Assembly: GCA_003661385.1 (NCBI GenBank) | Contig: QMWA01000131.1 | Location: forward strand, 1 to 5,167 | Origin: Thermoproteota archaeon | GTDB taxonomy: Archaea; Korarchaeota; Korarchaeia; B14-G2 | Length of the DNA: 5,167 nt | Direction of reading: 5' to 3' | In this document: positions 1 through 5,167 of the stretch, piece by piece | Position numbering within the stretch: the first letter of the stretch is position 1 | Layout of the letters: every line of letters begins with the position of its first letter | Position numbers and translations under genes: made by a program | The notes under the pieces: generated by a model | Seen by the model: the letters and a program-made list of their open reading frames with translations, nothing else | Databases searched by the model: none | Told to the model about the DNA's origin: nothing

Positions 1-445
1 AGAAAGGCGAGTTCCAGTAGACTGGAGCAGCCCCTATCGAGGTCAGGTAAGCTGAAACAGCCTGGAAGACCCTCTGCCTCACATACTCTGGCTTGCTCCA
101 GTCCTCGCTCCTCCAGGTCCTCACGGTGATGTTAGCTAGCTCACTCCACCTCCTAGCCTTGAGGAGCTTCAGCACATACCCGGCTTCCCTGGCGAACACG
201 TCCCTGTACTCCAGGGCTGGAGCAGTGCTCCCAGTCCTAAGGTTGAACCTGGCAAGCTGGTACCTCACCCTATACCTTATGGTCCAGTTCGAGTACATGT
301 CAACGTGCCAGAAGTCCACCAGCTCTAGGCCTGAGCTAGCAGCCCAAGGCTGCCCCCACGCCAGCTGCCCTAGCAGGAAGAAAATGAGAGGGGGGATGAG
401 AGCCCTGTGCAGCCTTGTGCAGCCTGCAGCCCTGTGAAGCCTCAT
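1..445 (-). CDS. Secreted hypothetical protein, N-terminal 148 residues, continues past the left edge
   Basis: The minus-strand frame opens with ATG at 445 and stays open to base 1, so the C-terminus lies outside the window. The start is supported by GGAGGG at 455-450, four bases upstream. It follows the stop of the preceding gene by a single base (TAG-C-ATG), so it is almost certainly translated by reinitiation. The N-terminus is basic (Arg2, Arg5, Arg11, Arg14) and followed by a hydrophobic run at residues 15-30 ending in LAWGQ, which fits a signal peptide or anchor. The exported part is rich in Trp, Tyr and Arg (for example WTIRYRVRYQLARF) and carries sequons NWT and NIT. In composition it resembles the basic domain of the upstream 525-residue protein. 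I do not recognise a family. It is read as a last or late component of the same secreted-protein operon. Confidence 0.85.
   Translation of the reverse strand, partial: MRLHRAAGCTRLHRALIPPLIFFLLGQLAWGQPWAASSGLELVDFWHVDMYSNWTIRYRVRYQLARFNLRTGSTAPALEYRDVFAREAGYVLKLLKARRWSELANITVRTWRSEDWSKPEYVRQRVFQAVSAYLTSIGAAPVYWNSPF
401..442 (-). repeat. Two near-identical 15-nt direct repeats in the signal-peptide region
   Basis: On the minus strand AGGCTTCACAGGGCT (442-428) and AGGCTGCACAGGGCT (415-401) differ at one base and lie 27 nt apart start to start. They encode the repeated peptide RLHRA at residues 2-6 and 11-15, directly ahead of the hydrophobic segment. The spacing is a multiple of three, so gain or loss of a unit would keep the frame and change only the basic region of the signal. 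This is a small local duplication of uncertain significance. Confidence 0.6.
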
Positions 446-446
446 G

Positions 447-2024
447 CTACCCTCCTCTCCAGCAGAACCTCTCCTCGACCCTCGGAGCCCAGCGCCACTG
501 CACCCTGTAGAGCTTCACCACCACCCTGTAAGCCGTCACCCTCCAGGTGACCTGCTTCCTCACGATCTTAAGCCACCTGTGCACTATGGTCCTGTGCACG
601 TAGACGTCCTTGATGTACTTGACAACGAACTTCTTTATCTTGGGGTCGTAGTACCTCTTGACCGTCAACCTAGCCTCAACCCAGGTCTCCACTGTCCTGC
701 CTAGGTACTTGCGTGCCACCTTGAACTTGACCTCCTTCACTCTCCTGACCCATGTGCGGGTCTGCTCACCAAGGTAGACGACCTTCCTTGTGAGCCTGTA
801 GCTCACGAGCTTCTTCAACCCGTACCTGAGGGGCCAGCCTTCCCTCACCCACTTTTCTCCGCTCAGCTTGGTTCCGTAGCGCCTGAGGAGCGTGAGCTTG
901 GGCTGCTGGAGCCACACCCCTGTGAGCTTGAACTTTATGTCCGCTTTCGCTGTCTTGGAGCCGTACACGTACTCCTGGCCTCCAGTGCTGTCCTCCCAGC
1001 CCTCTGGGAGCTTCCATACGAGGCCTGTGACCCTGAAGGTGAGCTTGTGCAGCCCCTGGCTCACGTCGCCCAGGTAGACCTCGTAGGCCCCGTCTACTGA
1101 GCCCTGCTTCCTGGCCTCCACGTGGCCTTCCCTGGCCTGCTCGTCCACCCAGCCCTCAGCCACGTACTCCGCCACCTTCCTCTCCTCAGGCCAGCCGAAC
1201 CCCAGGGCGTAGTATGTGAGGGTGAGCTTGATGTGCTTCCTGCTTCCCTGCGTCCACCTCTCGACACACTGCTTGGCGTAGATGTGGAGCACAGGGTACC
1301 CGTCCAGGTAGACGTCTACGCGCCTGGCGTATGGTGGCTTCCTCCCAGCGTCAACGCCCTCGACCTCAAGCCTAAGGGTCACGTTGTACATGGGTGAGGG
1401 AGCCTCAAGCAGCCACTCCTCGACCCCATAGCACCTAGCTGACAGCTCAGTGAGGTTCTCTGTAGGCGAGGGGGGAGTAGGCGGGGTCAAGGTCACACGC
1501 CTAGTCCTGGCAACAGTGCTCTCCAGCGTCCGCACCACCACAGCAGTCTGAGTAGCCCAAGCAGTGCGCTCAGCAACCCTAGTCCAACGCCTAGTCACAG
1601 ACACAGTGATGGTAGGGGTGGTCGGAGGAGGTGGAGTAGTGGTTGGGGTAAGCCACTCCTCTGGTAGGCTGCTTCCATCTGTCTTAGCTACCATCACCTG
1701 CCTCCAGGTTCTGCCGCAGCTGTCCCTCTTCTCGACGACTATGCGCCACCAGCAGCCTGGGAGCTTCCTCGAGGAAACCGCCCGAACGCTGACCACAGGG
1801 CAGCCTCCTGGAGGAGGAGGCTGCAGGTAGTACCTGGGTGTAAAGGGTGATATTTGCTGCGGATTGACTACATCTTGCATGTCTGGCTCTATCTGTGGTG
1901 TGCTGTCTCTGGGAGTGAGGCTCGTGGGGTCTTGTGCTGCTGGCTGTGCTGGGAGGCACAGTGCTGCCAGCAGCGCTAGGAGCACTAGCGCACCTGCTAT
2001 GCGTGTTACATGCATGTGCTTCAT
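447..2024 (-). CDS. Large secreted protein with Thr/Pro linkers and a strongly basic C-terminal domain
   Basis: This 525-residue protein belongs to no family I recognise. The start ATG at 2024 overlaps the upstream TGA (ATGA) and is preceded by GGAGGTGAG at 2036-2028. Residues 1-30 form a signal peptide (basic MKHMHVTR, then a Leu/Ala-rich core); Cys23 is not in a proper lipobox. Residues 60-122 form a small domain with Cys75, Cys91 and Cys103. Residues 125-140 are a Thr/Pro linker, 141-178 an alternating Thr/hydrophobic/Arg stretch, and 179-187 a second Pro/Thr linker. Residues 190-375 look like beta-rich domains (NLT and NVT sequons; pattern VDVYLDGYPVLHIYA). Residues 376-525 carry about 40 Lys/Arg against about 10 Asp/Glu, with alternating aromatic, Val and basic residues suggesting long beta strands. 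Linkers plus beta domains are typical of archaeal surface proteins. With two pilin-like genes upstream, it may be a surface or filament-associated adhesin-like protein; that role is inference. Confidence 0.88.
   Translation of the reverse strand: MKHMHVTRIAGALVLLALLAALCLPAQPAAQDPTSLTPRDSTPQIEPDMQDVVNPQQISPFTPRYYLQPPPPGGCPVVSVRAVSSRKLPGCWWRIVVEKRDSCGRTWRQVMVAKTDGSSLPEEWLTPTTTPPPPTTPTITVSVTRRWTRVAERTAWATQTAVVVRTLESTVARTRRVTLTPPTPPSPTENLTELSARCYGVEEWLLEAPSPMYNVTLRLEVEGVDAGRKPPYARRVDVYLDGYPVLHIYAKQCVERWTQGSRKHIKLTLTYYALGFGWPEERKVAEYVAEGWVDEQAREGHVEARKQGSVDGAYEVYLGDVSQGLHKLTFRVTGLVWKLPEGWEDSTGGQEYVYGSKTAKADIKFKLTGVWLQQPKLTLLRRYGTKLSGEKWVREGWPLRYGLKKLVSYRLTRKVVYLGEQTRTWVRRVKEVKFKVARKYLGRTVETWVEARLTVKRYYDPKIKKFVVKYIKDVYVHRTIVHRWLKIVRKQVTWRVTAYRVVVKLYRVQWRWAPRVEERFCWRGG
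450..455 (-). promoter_or_regulatory. Shine-Dalgarno site for the left-edge secreted protein
   Basis: The minus strand reads GGAGGG, four bases before the ATG at 445. It lies within the last codons of the preceding gene. It decides the start of the partial CDS and supports coupled translation across the one-base gap. Confidence 0.7.
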
Positions 2025-2827
2025 CCGCTCACCTCCACCTGGCCTTGTGGGCTGGCTTCCCCTGCCAGCTGCCCTGGCAGCCTCTCCCAGATGGCTAGGG
2101 CTGAGTCAGATAGGGTGGAGCCCTCTGGACAGGCTTGGAGCATGCTCGACTCCAGCTCAGGTGGCACACGCCACAGGACCCTGACCTCCTTCACCTCTCC
2201 TTCACCTAGGAAGGTTGAGGCTGTCTGCTGGTATCTGAAGCCGTCCACCTCGATCCACACCGCGCTGGGGTCGGCTTGGATCAGGGCGCTGCAGCCTGAG
2301 CCGAGGTTCTGGAGCACGTAGCCCACTAGCACATACGCCTCGACCCTGCTGGGCAGCTTGACTACTATGGTGTCGGCTGCAAGCTCGTATGTCCAGTTCG
2401 CCCAGGCTGGCGTCAAGGAGACCTCCAGGGGCCTCTCGGGGGTCCCTGAGCCTGAAGCCTGCAGGGTGTTTTGGAGGAAGCTCCTCCCGCACCAGACCCT
2501 GTACGCTAGGGCTATGGTCCTGGCTGGCCCTGTGGCCCTGAGCTCGAGGACCTCTAGCCACAGCCCCCTCTCCCTGAGGGTCTGGTTTACAGCGTGGCAC
2601 GCCTGCCAGAGCGTGGCCTCGGCCTCAGCCACAGGCCCTGAGGCCTGGGCAGCCTGCTCAACTGCCTGCCTGAGCTGCAGCGTCACGTCCCTGAACGCCT
2701 GGTACAGGGCTATGTCCACCCTGGGCTGTGGCACCATGAGGTAGAGGACTGTGGCTGCTATCGCAAGGGCTGCCAGGAAGCCTGCTGCAAGCACCATGCC
2801 ATAGCCCCTACGCCTGCGCAAGTGCAT
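2021..2827 (-). CDS. Membrane-anchored, pseudopilin-like protein with four cysteines
   Basis: The frame encodes 268 residues from ATG 2827 (269 from an overlapping GTG at 2830). ATG is preferred because it forms TGATG with the stop of the upstream gene; a run of GGAGGG and GGTGAGGGG lies just upstream. The N-terminus has four consecutive Arg then Gly-Tyr-Gly and a hydrophobic segment (about residues 9-33), like class III signals, with possible prepilin-peptidase cleavage after the Gly following the arginines. Residues 36-88 look like an amphipathic helix or coiled coil (AFRDVTLQLRQAVEQAAQ), as in the pilin stalk helix. Residues 90-222 are beta-rich. Cysteines at about 77, 113, 179 and 233 could form two disulfides, which suits an extracellular domain of a thermophile. 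It could be a minor pilin or an ordinary signal-anchored protein. No specific family is recognised. Confidence 0.85.
   Translation of the reverse strand: MHLRRRRGYGMVLAAGFLAALAIAATVLYLMVPQPRVDIALYQAFRDVTLQLRQAVEQAAQASGPVAEAEATLWQACHAVNQTLRERGLWLEVLELRATGPARTIALAYRVWCGRSFLQNTLQASGSGTPERPLEVSLTPAWANWTYELAADTIVVKLPSRVEAYVLVGYVLQNLGSGCSALIQADPSAVWIEVDGFRYQQTASTFLGEGEVKEVRVLWRVPPELESSMLQACPEGSTLSDSALAIWERLPGQLAGEASPQGQVEVSG
2028..2036 (-). promoter_or_regulatory. Shine-Dalgarno site for the 525-residue secreted protein
   Basis: The minus strand reads GGAGGTGAG, a strong match to the archaeal anti-Shine-Dalgarno sequence, with the GGAGG core seven bases before the ATG at 2024. It lies inside the end of the preceding gene and fits coupling through the ATGA overlap. 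Confidence 0.72.
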
Positions 2828-3255
2828 CACCCCTCACCCTCCTCTACCAGGAGGACCTCTCCGCTGGCTGACACGTAGGCCACGAGGTACGGGTGCGCTG
2901 GGACGCTGGGGTAGTGGGCTTCTAGCTCGCTTAGGCTCCATGAGTCCCAGAAGACCTGCCAGACCGTGGGAGGCCAGCTGACATCAGGGTAGGCTTCTTT
3001 AAGGGCCTCCAGCTCGCTTGAGTTCAGGAGCTGGGGGAAGCACTCTCCACTAGGGTGCTGTGAAGTAAACTCCCTTACTCTCGGATCCTGGAGGCTAGCT
3101 AGGATTGCCTCCCAGCCCGTGTCAACCTCCCCAGAGACGAGCTTGAGCGGCTTGGGCTCGGGGGTGAGCTTGCCTGCTAAGCCTCCTGCAAGCGAGCCTA
3201 AGGCCACTGCCCCGGCAGCTAGCAGGGTAGCCAGCCCAACCACACGCCTATCCAT
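2827..3255 (-). CDS. Small acidic signal-anchored protein of unknown function
   Basis: The frame encodes 142 residues from ATG 3255, preceded by GGTGG at 3264-3260 with a four-base gap. The N-terminus MDRR is followed by a Gly/Ala/Leu-rich hydrophobic segment at residues 5-28 and then a Pro-rich hinge (TPEPKP, 31-36), so it is anchored or exported like its neighbours. The hydrophobic segment is short and glycine-rich and lacks a clear RRG cleavage site, so pilin-type processing is uncertain. The rest (40-142) is acidic, with one cysteine (Cys72), a Trp-rich patch (VSWPPTVWQVFWDSW, about 92-106), and a C-terminus ending in repeated Glu and Gly. Its negative charge contrasts with the highly basic protein encoded two genes downstream. 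The stop overlaps the next start by one base (TGATG). No family is recognised. Confidence 0.8.
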   Translation of the reverse strand: MDRRVVGLATLLAAGAVALGSLAGGLAGKLTPEPKPLKLVSGEVDTGWEAILASLQDPRVREFTSQHPSGECFPQLLNSSELEALKEAYPDVSWPPTVWQVFWDSWSLSELEAHYPSVPAHPYLVAYVSASGEVLLVEEGEG

Positions 3256-3262
3256 TACACCA

Positions 3263-3288
3263 CCCAGCTGGGCGCCCCACGCTGGGGC
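3263..3288 (-). repeat. Two adjacent GC-rich inverted repeats between the second pilin gene and the small acidic gene
   Basis: Within the 67-nt spacer at 3256-3322, CCCAGCTGGG (3263-3272) is a perfect 10-bp palindrome. GCCCCA-CGC-TGGGGC (3274-3288) is a perfect six-base-pair hairpin with a three-base loop. There is no T tract after either, so this is not a standard terminator. It could act as an mRNA processing or stability element just ahead of the Shine-Dalgarno site. Confidence 0.45.
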
Positions 3289-3322
3289 TCTGCCCTCCAG
3301 GCGGCTTCAGCCTGGGCTGGGG

Positions 3323-3715
3323 CTAGGGGGTCCAGCCTGCTTCAGCATGTACGCCAGCTGGCCCGCTTACCTCAATAAAGTGGGGTGCAGCTGGGTCTAC
3401 TGGCTGGAAGCTGAGCTGGGCTAGCTCTCCTGGCTGGAGCTCCTGGAGCTGAAGCTCACCTCTGGGCTCTCCGTCGACTAGCACATGCCATCTGCCAGCT
3501 GGTATGGTGTCTGGGCCGAGGTTCCTGACTGAGAGCTGGCCTCCTGGGTCAAAGGCCACAACCTCTAGCCTGGCAGCCACCCTTAAGGCTTTTTTAGCTG
3601 TCTTGGAGGTCATTAGCCTAGTAGGCTGGCTCAAAGCCAGTGCTAAAGCCACACTCAGGAGCATCAGGGCCACCACTGTAGTAGTGGTCTGTAGGCCAGC
3701 TCTCCTGCCAGCCAA
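3323..3715 (-). CDS. Archaeal type IV pilin-like protein, paralogue of the upstream pilin
   Basis: The frame encodes 130 residues. The start is TTG at 3715, the only candidate at the N-terminus, because an in-frame TAG lies four codons upstream; GGGTGG precedes it by about five bases. Residues 1-7 (MAGRRAG) form a class III signal with probable prepilin-peptidase cleavage after Gly7, followed by a hydrophobic helix (LQTTTTVVALMLLSVALALAL, residues 8-28). Residues 50-126 form a compact beta domain. Its pattern matches the upstream pilin: D-x-G-G/N, V-R/K-N-x-G, IP-x-G-x-W-x-V-x-VDG, L-x-PGE, and a shared IEVSGPAG near the C-terminus. It lies 98 nt behind that gene and is probably co-transcribed. 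It is presumably a filament subunit (minor or alternative) or an envelope-anchored beta-sandwich protein. The substitution of RRAG for RRG and its more basic linker set it apart. Confidence 0.85.
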   Translation of the reverse strand: MAGRRAGLQTTTTVVALMLLSVALALALSQPTRLMTSKTAKKALRVAARLEVVAFDPGGQLSVRNLGPDTIPAGRWHVLVDGEPRGELQLQELQPGELAQLSFQPVDPAAPHFIEVSGPAGVHAEAGWTP

Positions 3716-3741
3716 GCAGCCACCCTACGAGCCTCTCCAAC

Positions 3742-3776
3742 CTCTAGCTAGCAGAGCTAGAGCTACGCTCGTAGCT
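3742..3776 (-). repeat. Two overlapping inverted repeats between the two pilin-like genes
   Basis: CTCTAGCT (3742-3749) and AGCTAGAG (3755-3762) form a perfect eight-base-pair stem with a five-base loop. AGCTACG (3761-3767) and CGTAGCT (3770-3776) form a perfect seven-base inverted repeat with two central bases. The two overlap by two bases. No U-rich tract follows on the minus strand, so a simple intrinsic terminator is not indicated. An attenuator, RNA-processing site or mRNA-stabilising structure that lets the first pilin be made in excess is a reasonable guess. Confidence 0.5.
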
Positions 3777-3813
3777 GCAGGCTTGAGTTTGACGTAGGGC
3801 CCTTGCGCGCGCT

Positions 3814-4215
3814 TCACGGGCTGTAGACGTACTGTGCTGTTGCGCCAGCTGGCCCACTGACCTCTATCACGTATGTCATGCCCTCCTGGAACGTGAATGT
3901 CCCTGGGCTCAGGGCCAGGGTCTCTCCTGGGTCTAGCTCGCCTGCGTTGGTGACCTGATTCACCACCTGCCCGTCGACAACAACCTCCCAGTTCCCGTCA
4001 GGTATCACCGTAGTTCCAGTGTTCTTCACTATGATGTTCCCACTTGAGTCCAAGCCTATGACCTCCACCTGAGCTGCGCTAGCTACGCCAGCCATCTTCC
4101 TCCCAGCGAGCCTTATCTGCCCCCTCAAAACACCGTAGGCTAGCAGAGCTCCAGCTACACCCACCACCATCAAAACCACAGTCACAACCAGAGTACTAAT
4201 CCCCCTTCTCTCCAC
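3814..4215 (-). CDS. Archaeal type IV pilin-like protein, first gene of the operon
   Basis: From GTG 4215 the product has 133 residues, close to the 130 of its paralogue downstream. It begins VERRGISTLVVTVVLM: ERRG followed by a hydrophobic helix of about 22 residues is the standard archaeal prepilin signal, with cleavage expected after Gly5. A short basic linker (LRGQIRLAGRK) leads to a beta domain at about 48-130 (VEVIGLDSSGNIIVKNTGT, then IPDGNWEVVVDG, LDPGET, IEVSGPAGATAQ). This is an Ig/CARDB-like pattern common in pilins and archaellum-associated FlaF/FlaG-type proteins. The frame stays open upstream, with other starts at TTG 4230, ATG 4251 and ATG 4371. The extra 40 residues from 4371 are Trp-rich and look non-coding, and 4251 lies inside a palindrome. 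The exact start is uncertain. It is likely the main subunit of a surface filament; archaellin is an alternative, but no archaellum genes are visible. Confidence 0.85.
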   Translation of the reverse strand: MERRGISTLVVTVVLMVVGVAGALLAYGVLRGQIRLAGRKMAGVASAAQVEVIGLDSSGNIIVKNTGTTVIPDGNWEVVVDGQVVNQVTNAGELDPGETLALSPGTFTFQEGMTYVIEVSGPAGATAQYVYSP

Positions 4216-4242
4216 ACCTCCCGCCTTCAACTCTCCTATAGA

Positions 4243-4512: not shown

Positions 4513-4866
4513 ATGCCGAGGTCCAAGCCTGAAGGCAGCATGCTGACAGGTGTGCTAGTAGGCTTTATAGCGATGCTAGCTTTAAGCTGGTGGCTACCCA
4601 TAATAGGAGACCTCATAGCCGGGTTCCTAGCAGGCTACATAGCAAAAGGCTCCCCAATGAGAGGAGCTCTAGCAGGGTTCCTAGCAGGAGTCCTCGGAGC
4701 CATAATCCTAGCTATACTAGCGACAACAGTAGGCCTAGCACTAGCTGGCATAGTAGGCGGGATCCTAGGAGCAGCAGCAGGCATAGCAGCCATCATACTA
4801 AGCGTGAAGGGTGCACTACTAGGAGCAGTAGGAGGAGCAATAGGAGCTCTAGTAGCACACCGCTAG
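4513..4866 (+). CDS. Glycine-rich multi-spanning membrane protein, DUF5518-like
   Basis: The frame encodes 117 residues from ATG 4513, 26 nt downstream of a TATA-like box. After a short basic N-terminus (MPRSKPEGS) come four to five hydrophobic segments, at about residues 10-27, 30-45, 50-72, 74-96 and 98-115. Small residues recur at helix-packing spacing (GFLAG at 37-41 and 55-59, GGILGAAAG, GAVGGAIG), a glycine-zipper pattern. The order of loop PIIGDLIAGFLAGYIAKGS, then RGALAGFLAGVLGAIILAIL, resembles small archaeal DUF5518-type membrane proteins, whose function is unknown. At DNA level GGGTTCCTAGCAGG occurs at 4621-4634 and 4675-4688, exactly 18 codons apart, hinting at an internal hairpin duplication. 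The gene is divergent from the pilin operon and has lower GC content. It ends at TAG 4864-4866. No catalytic residues are visible. Confidence 0.82.
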   Translation: MPRSKPEGSMLTGVLVGFIAMLALSWWLPIIGDLIAGFLAGYIAKGSPMRGALAGFLAGVLGAIILAILATTVGLALAGIVGGILGAAAGIAAIILSVKGALLGAVGGAIGALVAHR

Positions 4867-4992: not shown

Positions 4993-5167
4993 ATGGAGAG
5001 ATGCTGCTATTGCGGAAAACCCTTCGCAGAATTCTACGATAGCATATGGGAAGGAGACCCATATGCTGAAAAATACTATCAAATCGTCAACAGGTTTATA
5101 GAGAAGTACAACCCTACTGCTAGGAAAATTCTAGAGCTAGCTGTTGGAACAGGAAACGTAATAGGCA
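4993..5167 (+). CDS. Class I SAM-dependent methyltransferase, N-terminal 58 residues, continues past the right edge
   Basis: The frame starts at ATG 4993 behind a leaderless-type promoter and remains open to the last base. The visible part reads FAEFYDSIWEGDPYAEKYYQ, the helical lead-in usual in UbiE/Methyltransf_25-type enzymes (FYD-x-IW). It ends in ILELAVGTGNVIG at residues 46-58, the motif I glycine-rich loop that binds S-adenosylmethionine. The usual Cys of LxLGCGTG-type loops is Val here. An unusual N-terminal Cys cluster (CCYCGK, residues 4-9) precedes the domain and could be half of a zinc site completed elsewhere, or a redox or metal ligand. The substrate cannot be told because the C-terminal part is missing. 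The gene looks transcriptionally independent of its neighbours. Confidence 0.85.
   Translation, partial: MERCCYCGKPFAEFYDSIWEGDPYAEKYYQIVNRFIEKYNPTARKILELAVGTGNVIG

Follow-up and report, generated by a model that had tools for sequence, protein, structure and literature searches.

What do six adjoining genes for exported proteins build when no assembly machinery is found beside them? The question is posed by contig C131 (5,167 bp), the whole of which was analysed and is here called the window. It belongs to a 1.74-Mb archaeal genome assembled in 206 contigs and 91% complete, in whose bin a search for 16S rRNA found none. The six genes occupy bases 2–4215 of the minus strand and run leftward to the contig edge, and the last four are tightly coupled, adjacent frames either sharing 4 bases or being separated by a single base. 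The initial annotation had reported an N-terminal export or anchor segment in every product, together with paralogy and overlaps among the genes, and had proposed a possible undescribed surface structure with no recognisable machinery. The export segments are confirmed. An N-terminal 19-residue stretch exceeding 1.6 on the Kyte-Doolittle scale is present in five of the six products, whereas among 54 long frames taken from the genome's other contigs 12 have one; the sixth, encoded by a cut frame (2–445, minus strand), has a shorter, signal-peptide-like N-terminal segment. Searches of Pfam, NCBIfam and PHROGs returned nothing above cut-off for any of the six.

Two further frames occupy the plus strand of the window. 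The first (4513–4866) is divergent from the block; its 117-aa product, rich in glycine and alanine, is a membrane protein that belongs to DUF5518 (Pfam E 2.9e-11). The second (4993–5166) runs off the contig; the 58 N-terminal residues that it encodes include a CxxC motif and the methyltransferase-like stretch ILELAVGTGN, and have no Pfam match.

The first two genes of the block encode PilA-family pilins. Pilin A (3814–4215, minus strand) has a GTG start and a class III signal peptide, VERRG/ISTLVV, where the slash marks the predicted cleavage; in pilin B (3323–3715, minus strand) the corresponding site is RRAG/LQTTTTVV. The two are paralogues with 36% identity (E 1.8e-15), so that the paralogy noted initially holds, as do the overlaps. 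Their profile matches to the PilA proteins of related genomes reach 99.2% for pilin A and 98.7% for pilin B, and pilin B also matches a pilin of genome G017 directly (E 2.8e-10). Both align over their full length with the pilins of related genomes, their ends sharing a V.GP motif and, close to the C-terminus, an aromatic residue (alignment A1). Compared with solved structures, the profile of this 14-pilin family finds the Pyrobaculum calidifontis type IV pilin 8fk7 (E 2e-9), from an archaeal type IV pilus so named in PMC12954529, and the S. acidocaldarius AAP pilin 8q30 (E 2.8e-4). Pilin A in addition has a weak match to UpsA in NCBIfam.

In the structure that AlphaFold predicts for pilin A (pLDDT 82.5), a helix of 34 residues (21–54) is accompanied by a seven-stranded beta domain. 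Foldseek ranks 8fk7 first (E 1.5e-7) and AAP 8q30 second (E 6.2e-5), followed by the archaellum protein FlaG and the P. arsenaticum pilus. When the beta domain was compared by VIA-align, 8fk7 (rmsd 2.2 over 86 residues) and FlaG (rmsd 2.6 over 88) tied at the top with Z 9.6. This domain by itself is a common arrangement, and the pilin assignment therefore rests on the sequence match and the helix. By sequence, and as judged from the predicted fold, the pilins are homologous to structurally proven type IV pilins, which agrees with the earlier view of both as class III pilin-like proteins.

A further pilin-like product is the 269-aa protein (2021–2830, minus strand), with a predicted cleavage site at RRRRG/YGMVLAAGF and an expected long N-terminal helix. 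We compared the genes of the window, and those of a second contig of this genome, C156, one by one with profiles of the families found in the type IV pilus operons of relatives. The resulting matrix is close to diagonal, with one-to-one matches for six genes of the two contigs and low off-diagonal scores. The 269-aa protein scores 87% to a minor-pilin family that we call RRGAGG and below 9% to five other families, and BLAST relates it to the copies in G017 and G021 (E 0.001; alignment A2). The initial annotation had taken it for a pseudopilin-like protein with a long helix, and it is here placed as a likely minor pilin. On C156, the 158-aa protein matches the NPGDW minor-pilin family (98.7%), the 138-aa protein a 154-aa family (96.7%) and the 315-aa protein the DVEPLEA family (80%). 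The matches of the 269-aa and 315-aa proteins are moderate, and their family assignments are put forward at that strength. No family in the matrix is matched by the cut gene, the 525-aa and 142-aa proteins, a C39-like frame of C156, or the 107-aa and 199-aa proteins of the same contig.

At the left edge of the window it is the contig that stops and not the operon, and the components of a pilus assembly machinery are encoded on other contigs. C156 (4,330 bp) contains, in order, the C39-like frame, the genes for the 158-, 138-, 315-, 107- and 199-aa proteins, and the N-terminus of an ATPase that is cut at the right end. C44 starts inside a PilB/TadA-type secretion ATPase (from residue 323 onward of the G009 protein) and continues with a 535-aa TadC (C44:425–2032) that has two T2SSF domains. 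A type IV prepilin peptidase (C78:1521–2288; Peptidase_A24, E 1.4e-7) is located on a third contig, likewise separate from the window. With ATPase and TadC on C44, the ATPase N-terminus on C156 and the peptidase on C78, the machinery is present in this genome. The search for an ATPase and a platform beyond base 1, which the initial annotation had recommended, is thus positive, and its remark on the missing machinery is true inside the window only. That reading arose because the window stops at a contig end.

Other candidate secretion genes were seen in the same genome. Directly upstream of the peptidase on C78 is a single-domain TadC-like protein (L029 619–2288), possibly part of a second filament system. 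Two more secretion ATPases, 39.6% alike and with no adjoining TadC in the stretches read, are found on C54 (L013 8588–9607) and C59 (L014 6570–7721); C59 also encodes a repetitive coiled-coil-like protein (L014 8401–8877) in which SELSEKLDSLSSSVSELKSFGEEVAKA is repeated and which is cut by the contig end. The C54 ATPase was considered as the continuation of C156 and rejected: there is no overlap, abutment breaks the frame, and the aligned ends differ before GGGAA. Over the same columns, the C44 ATPase is 40–44% identical to the operon ATPase of relatives, compared with 33–37% for that of C54, which, unlike C44, resembles the stand-alone ATPase of C59 more than the operon ATPases. The ATPase N-terminus of C156 is accordingly assigned to C44.

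In this genome contig ends intervene between the window pilins and the ATPase and TadC genes, and the linkage is seen instead in relatives. Among 26 genomes of the class, the pilin is present in 10 and the C44-type TadC in 10, with both in nine. Pilin, ATPase and TadC occur within about 10 kb in seven of these genomes (G006, G007, G009, G013, G014, G017 and G020), most of which have several minor pilins at the locus and several a prepilin peptidase. In G021, at a contig end, a minor pilin of the 269-aa type comes immediately after the pilin. In G017 and G009, a gene of the 269-aa family is followed by one of the NPGDW family, the order that we propose for the passage from C131 to C156, where two genes would be inserted. 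The present genome yielded no counterpart of a 163-aa minor pilin that the relatives have. No sequence overlap exists between the left end of the window and other contigs, and neither C131–C156 nor C156–C44 is joined by an overlap or by a spanning contig or read; we therefore infer a single operon from synteny.

The block is thus very probably the stretch nearest the promoter in a type IV pilus operon of a TACK-group archaeon, with the machinery on other contigs. The proposed order is pilin A, pilin B, the 142-aa, 269-aa and 525-aa proteins, the cut gene or C39 peptidase, the 158-, 138-, 315-, 107- and 199-aa proteins, ATPase and TadC, distributed over C131, C156 and C44. In type IV pili, prepilins that have entered the membrane are cut by PibD ahead of the helix; extrusion of these helices by the ATPase and TadC then builds the filament, and minor pilins serve as its primers or its tip. 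Here, a PibD-type peptidase would cleave the two PilA-family prepilins after the (R)RG/RAG site, and the PilB/TadA-type ATPase and the double-domain TadC platform would pack their hydrophobic helices into the filament, which the 269-aa protein and three further minor pilins may initiate, cap or decorate. The earlier suggestion of a shared product, a filament with accessory subunits, is probable, and the recommended check of synteny in relatives was positive. However, the structure is not an undescribed one: archaeal type IV pilus loci that combine pilin, ATPase and TadC genes of this kind are a class already described (PMC4858521).

The accessory genes are less readily placed. The 142-aa protein (2827–3255, minus strand) has an N-terminal hydrophobic segment and no family or profile match. 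The 525-aa protein (447–2024, minus strand) has the sequence composition of a Sec-type secreted protein, and may be an adhesin or ligand-binding accessory. Its N-terminus is signal-peptide-like, a Thr/Pro-rich linker spans about residues 121–190, and its C-terminal 155 residues carry a net charge of about +32 (pI 11). None of 29 genomes of the phylum contains a homologue, and no solved structure is matched at E <0.03; a weak similarity to acylphosphatase (E 0.036) was taken as chance. A single-sequence structure model is uninformative (pLDDT 34), and DNA repeats within the gene are limited to short, chance-like pairs. The cut gene (2–445), an open frame at the contig end, encodes the N-terminal part of a secreted protein and is perhaps the start of the C39-like peptidase of C156, a guess from position. 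The latter is a 5'-open frame of 383 aa (L088 1–1152) with a Peptidase_C39_2 domain (E 1.9e-12). It contains Cys and His motifs (PWCLPAC and GHALVLYGYN), and the 29 genomes of the phylum hold no match to it. The 142-aa, 525-aa and C39-like proteins all have no counterpart in the type IV pilus loci of relatives.

This absence, which for the 525-aa protein and the cut gene extends to the 29 genomes of the phylum, would suit an unrelated secreted cassette, composed of these two genes, that was inserted in the pilus operon and plays no role in the filament. We regard such an insertion as unlikely, since the 525-aa gene is tightly coupled to its neighbours, with a 4-base overlap upstream and a 1-base gap downstream, and comparable proteins are known in other archaeal type IV pilus loci. 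PMC4858521 describes large secreted proteins, read as adhesins or minor pilins, in some of these loci, and in some papain-fold (transglutaminase-family) surface peptidases whose role is unexplained. By this analogy, the likeliest accessory roles are those of an adhesin and a processing protease. The 525-aa protein would thus most likely be a surface adhesin and the C39-like protein a processing or trimming protease, both of them lineage-specific accessories. In a literature search for C39 peptidases with archaeal pili, the sole archaeal match concerned an unrelated bacteriocin-like locus.

A second alternative is that the pilins and secreted proteins form a separate structure that uses the ATPase and TadC of the genome in trans, C156 and C44 being another locus. 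The contigs are indeed joined by no sequence overlap, and Makarova et al. argue that ATPase/TadC pairs can serve major pilins in trans (PMC4858521). However, the same type of pilin is located near the same ATPase and TadC in the seven relatives, and the first minor pilin of C156 is of the NPGDW family, whose gene comes next after that of the 269-aa family in G017 and G009. Moreover, the two pilins of the window are the only PilA matches in the genome at E 0.001, and we give the separate-structure reading little credence. Still more improbable is that the locus encodes an archaellum (rotary filament) and not a pilus of the adhesion type: the stator proteins FlaG and FlaF and the archaellins share the beta domain and are among the fold matches, and profile searches of the block genes gave weak ArlF and ArlG matches, but no accessory gene (ArlH/ArlX) was recognised within the loci read, the pilins match type IV pilins best, and a double-domain TadC with minor pilins fits the pilus loci of relatives.

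The type IV pilus operon proposed here can be set beside several known systems. The P. calidifontis pilus (8fk7) provides the best sequence and Foldseek match, with a pilin of similar length that likewise has an N-terminal helix and a beta domain; identity is about 19–24%, and the comparison covered the pilin. The Aap and Ups pili of Sulfolobales also have PilA-family pilins, with 8q30 second in both searches and the weak UpsA match, and are described in PMC4858521 as simple (pilin, ATPase and TadC), whereas the present set is extended by two large secreted proteins and several minor pilins. The Thermoproteales clades 4B, 4E and 4G of Makarova et al. 2016 (PMC4858521) likewise combine PilA pilins and several minor pilins with extra membrane proteins and a large secreted protein, possibly an adhesin; the sections consulted mention transglutaminase-family surface peptidases but no C39-like peptidase. 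The operons of the same class at G006:C4 (JAOZGC010000002.1) and G009:C9 bring together, at short distances, PilA, the 269-aa family, further minor pilins, ATPase, double TadC and prepilin peptidase. No counterparts of the 142-aa, 525-aa and C39-like proteins were found in them, and they have the 163-aa minor pilin. The proposed pilus is a TACK-type archaeal type IV pilus, of a known kind and ordinary in principle, and only the two secreted extras, one of them likely a protease, are unusual.

An apparent orphan surface structure is therefore very likely a type IV pilus whose genes are separated by assembly gaps. The comparison reveals that a pilus operon is conserved in this archaeal class, for which the literature searched contained no such description, and the minor-pilin families grouped here are usable for annotating the pilus loci of related genomes. 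More tentatively, the locus may specify a lineage-specific variant in which a dedicated secreted protease of papain fold (C39-like) accompanies the strongly basic surface protein of 525 aa, an idea that we rate as possible rather than probable. The C39-like peptidase adds to the unexplained link of papain-fold surface peptidases with archaeal pili (PMC4858521). If the variant is real, an enzyme and a ligand-binding adhesin would process the filament or arm it, an arrangement undescribed for other archaeal pili.
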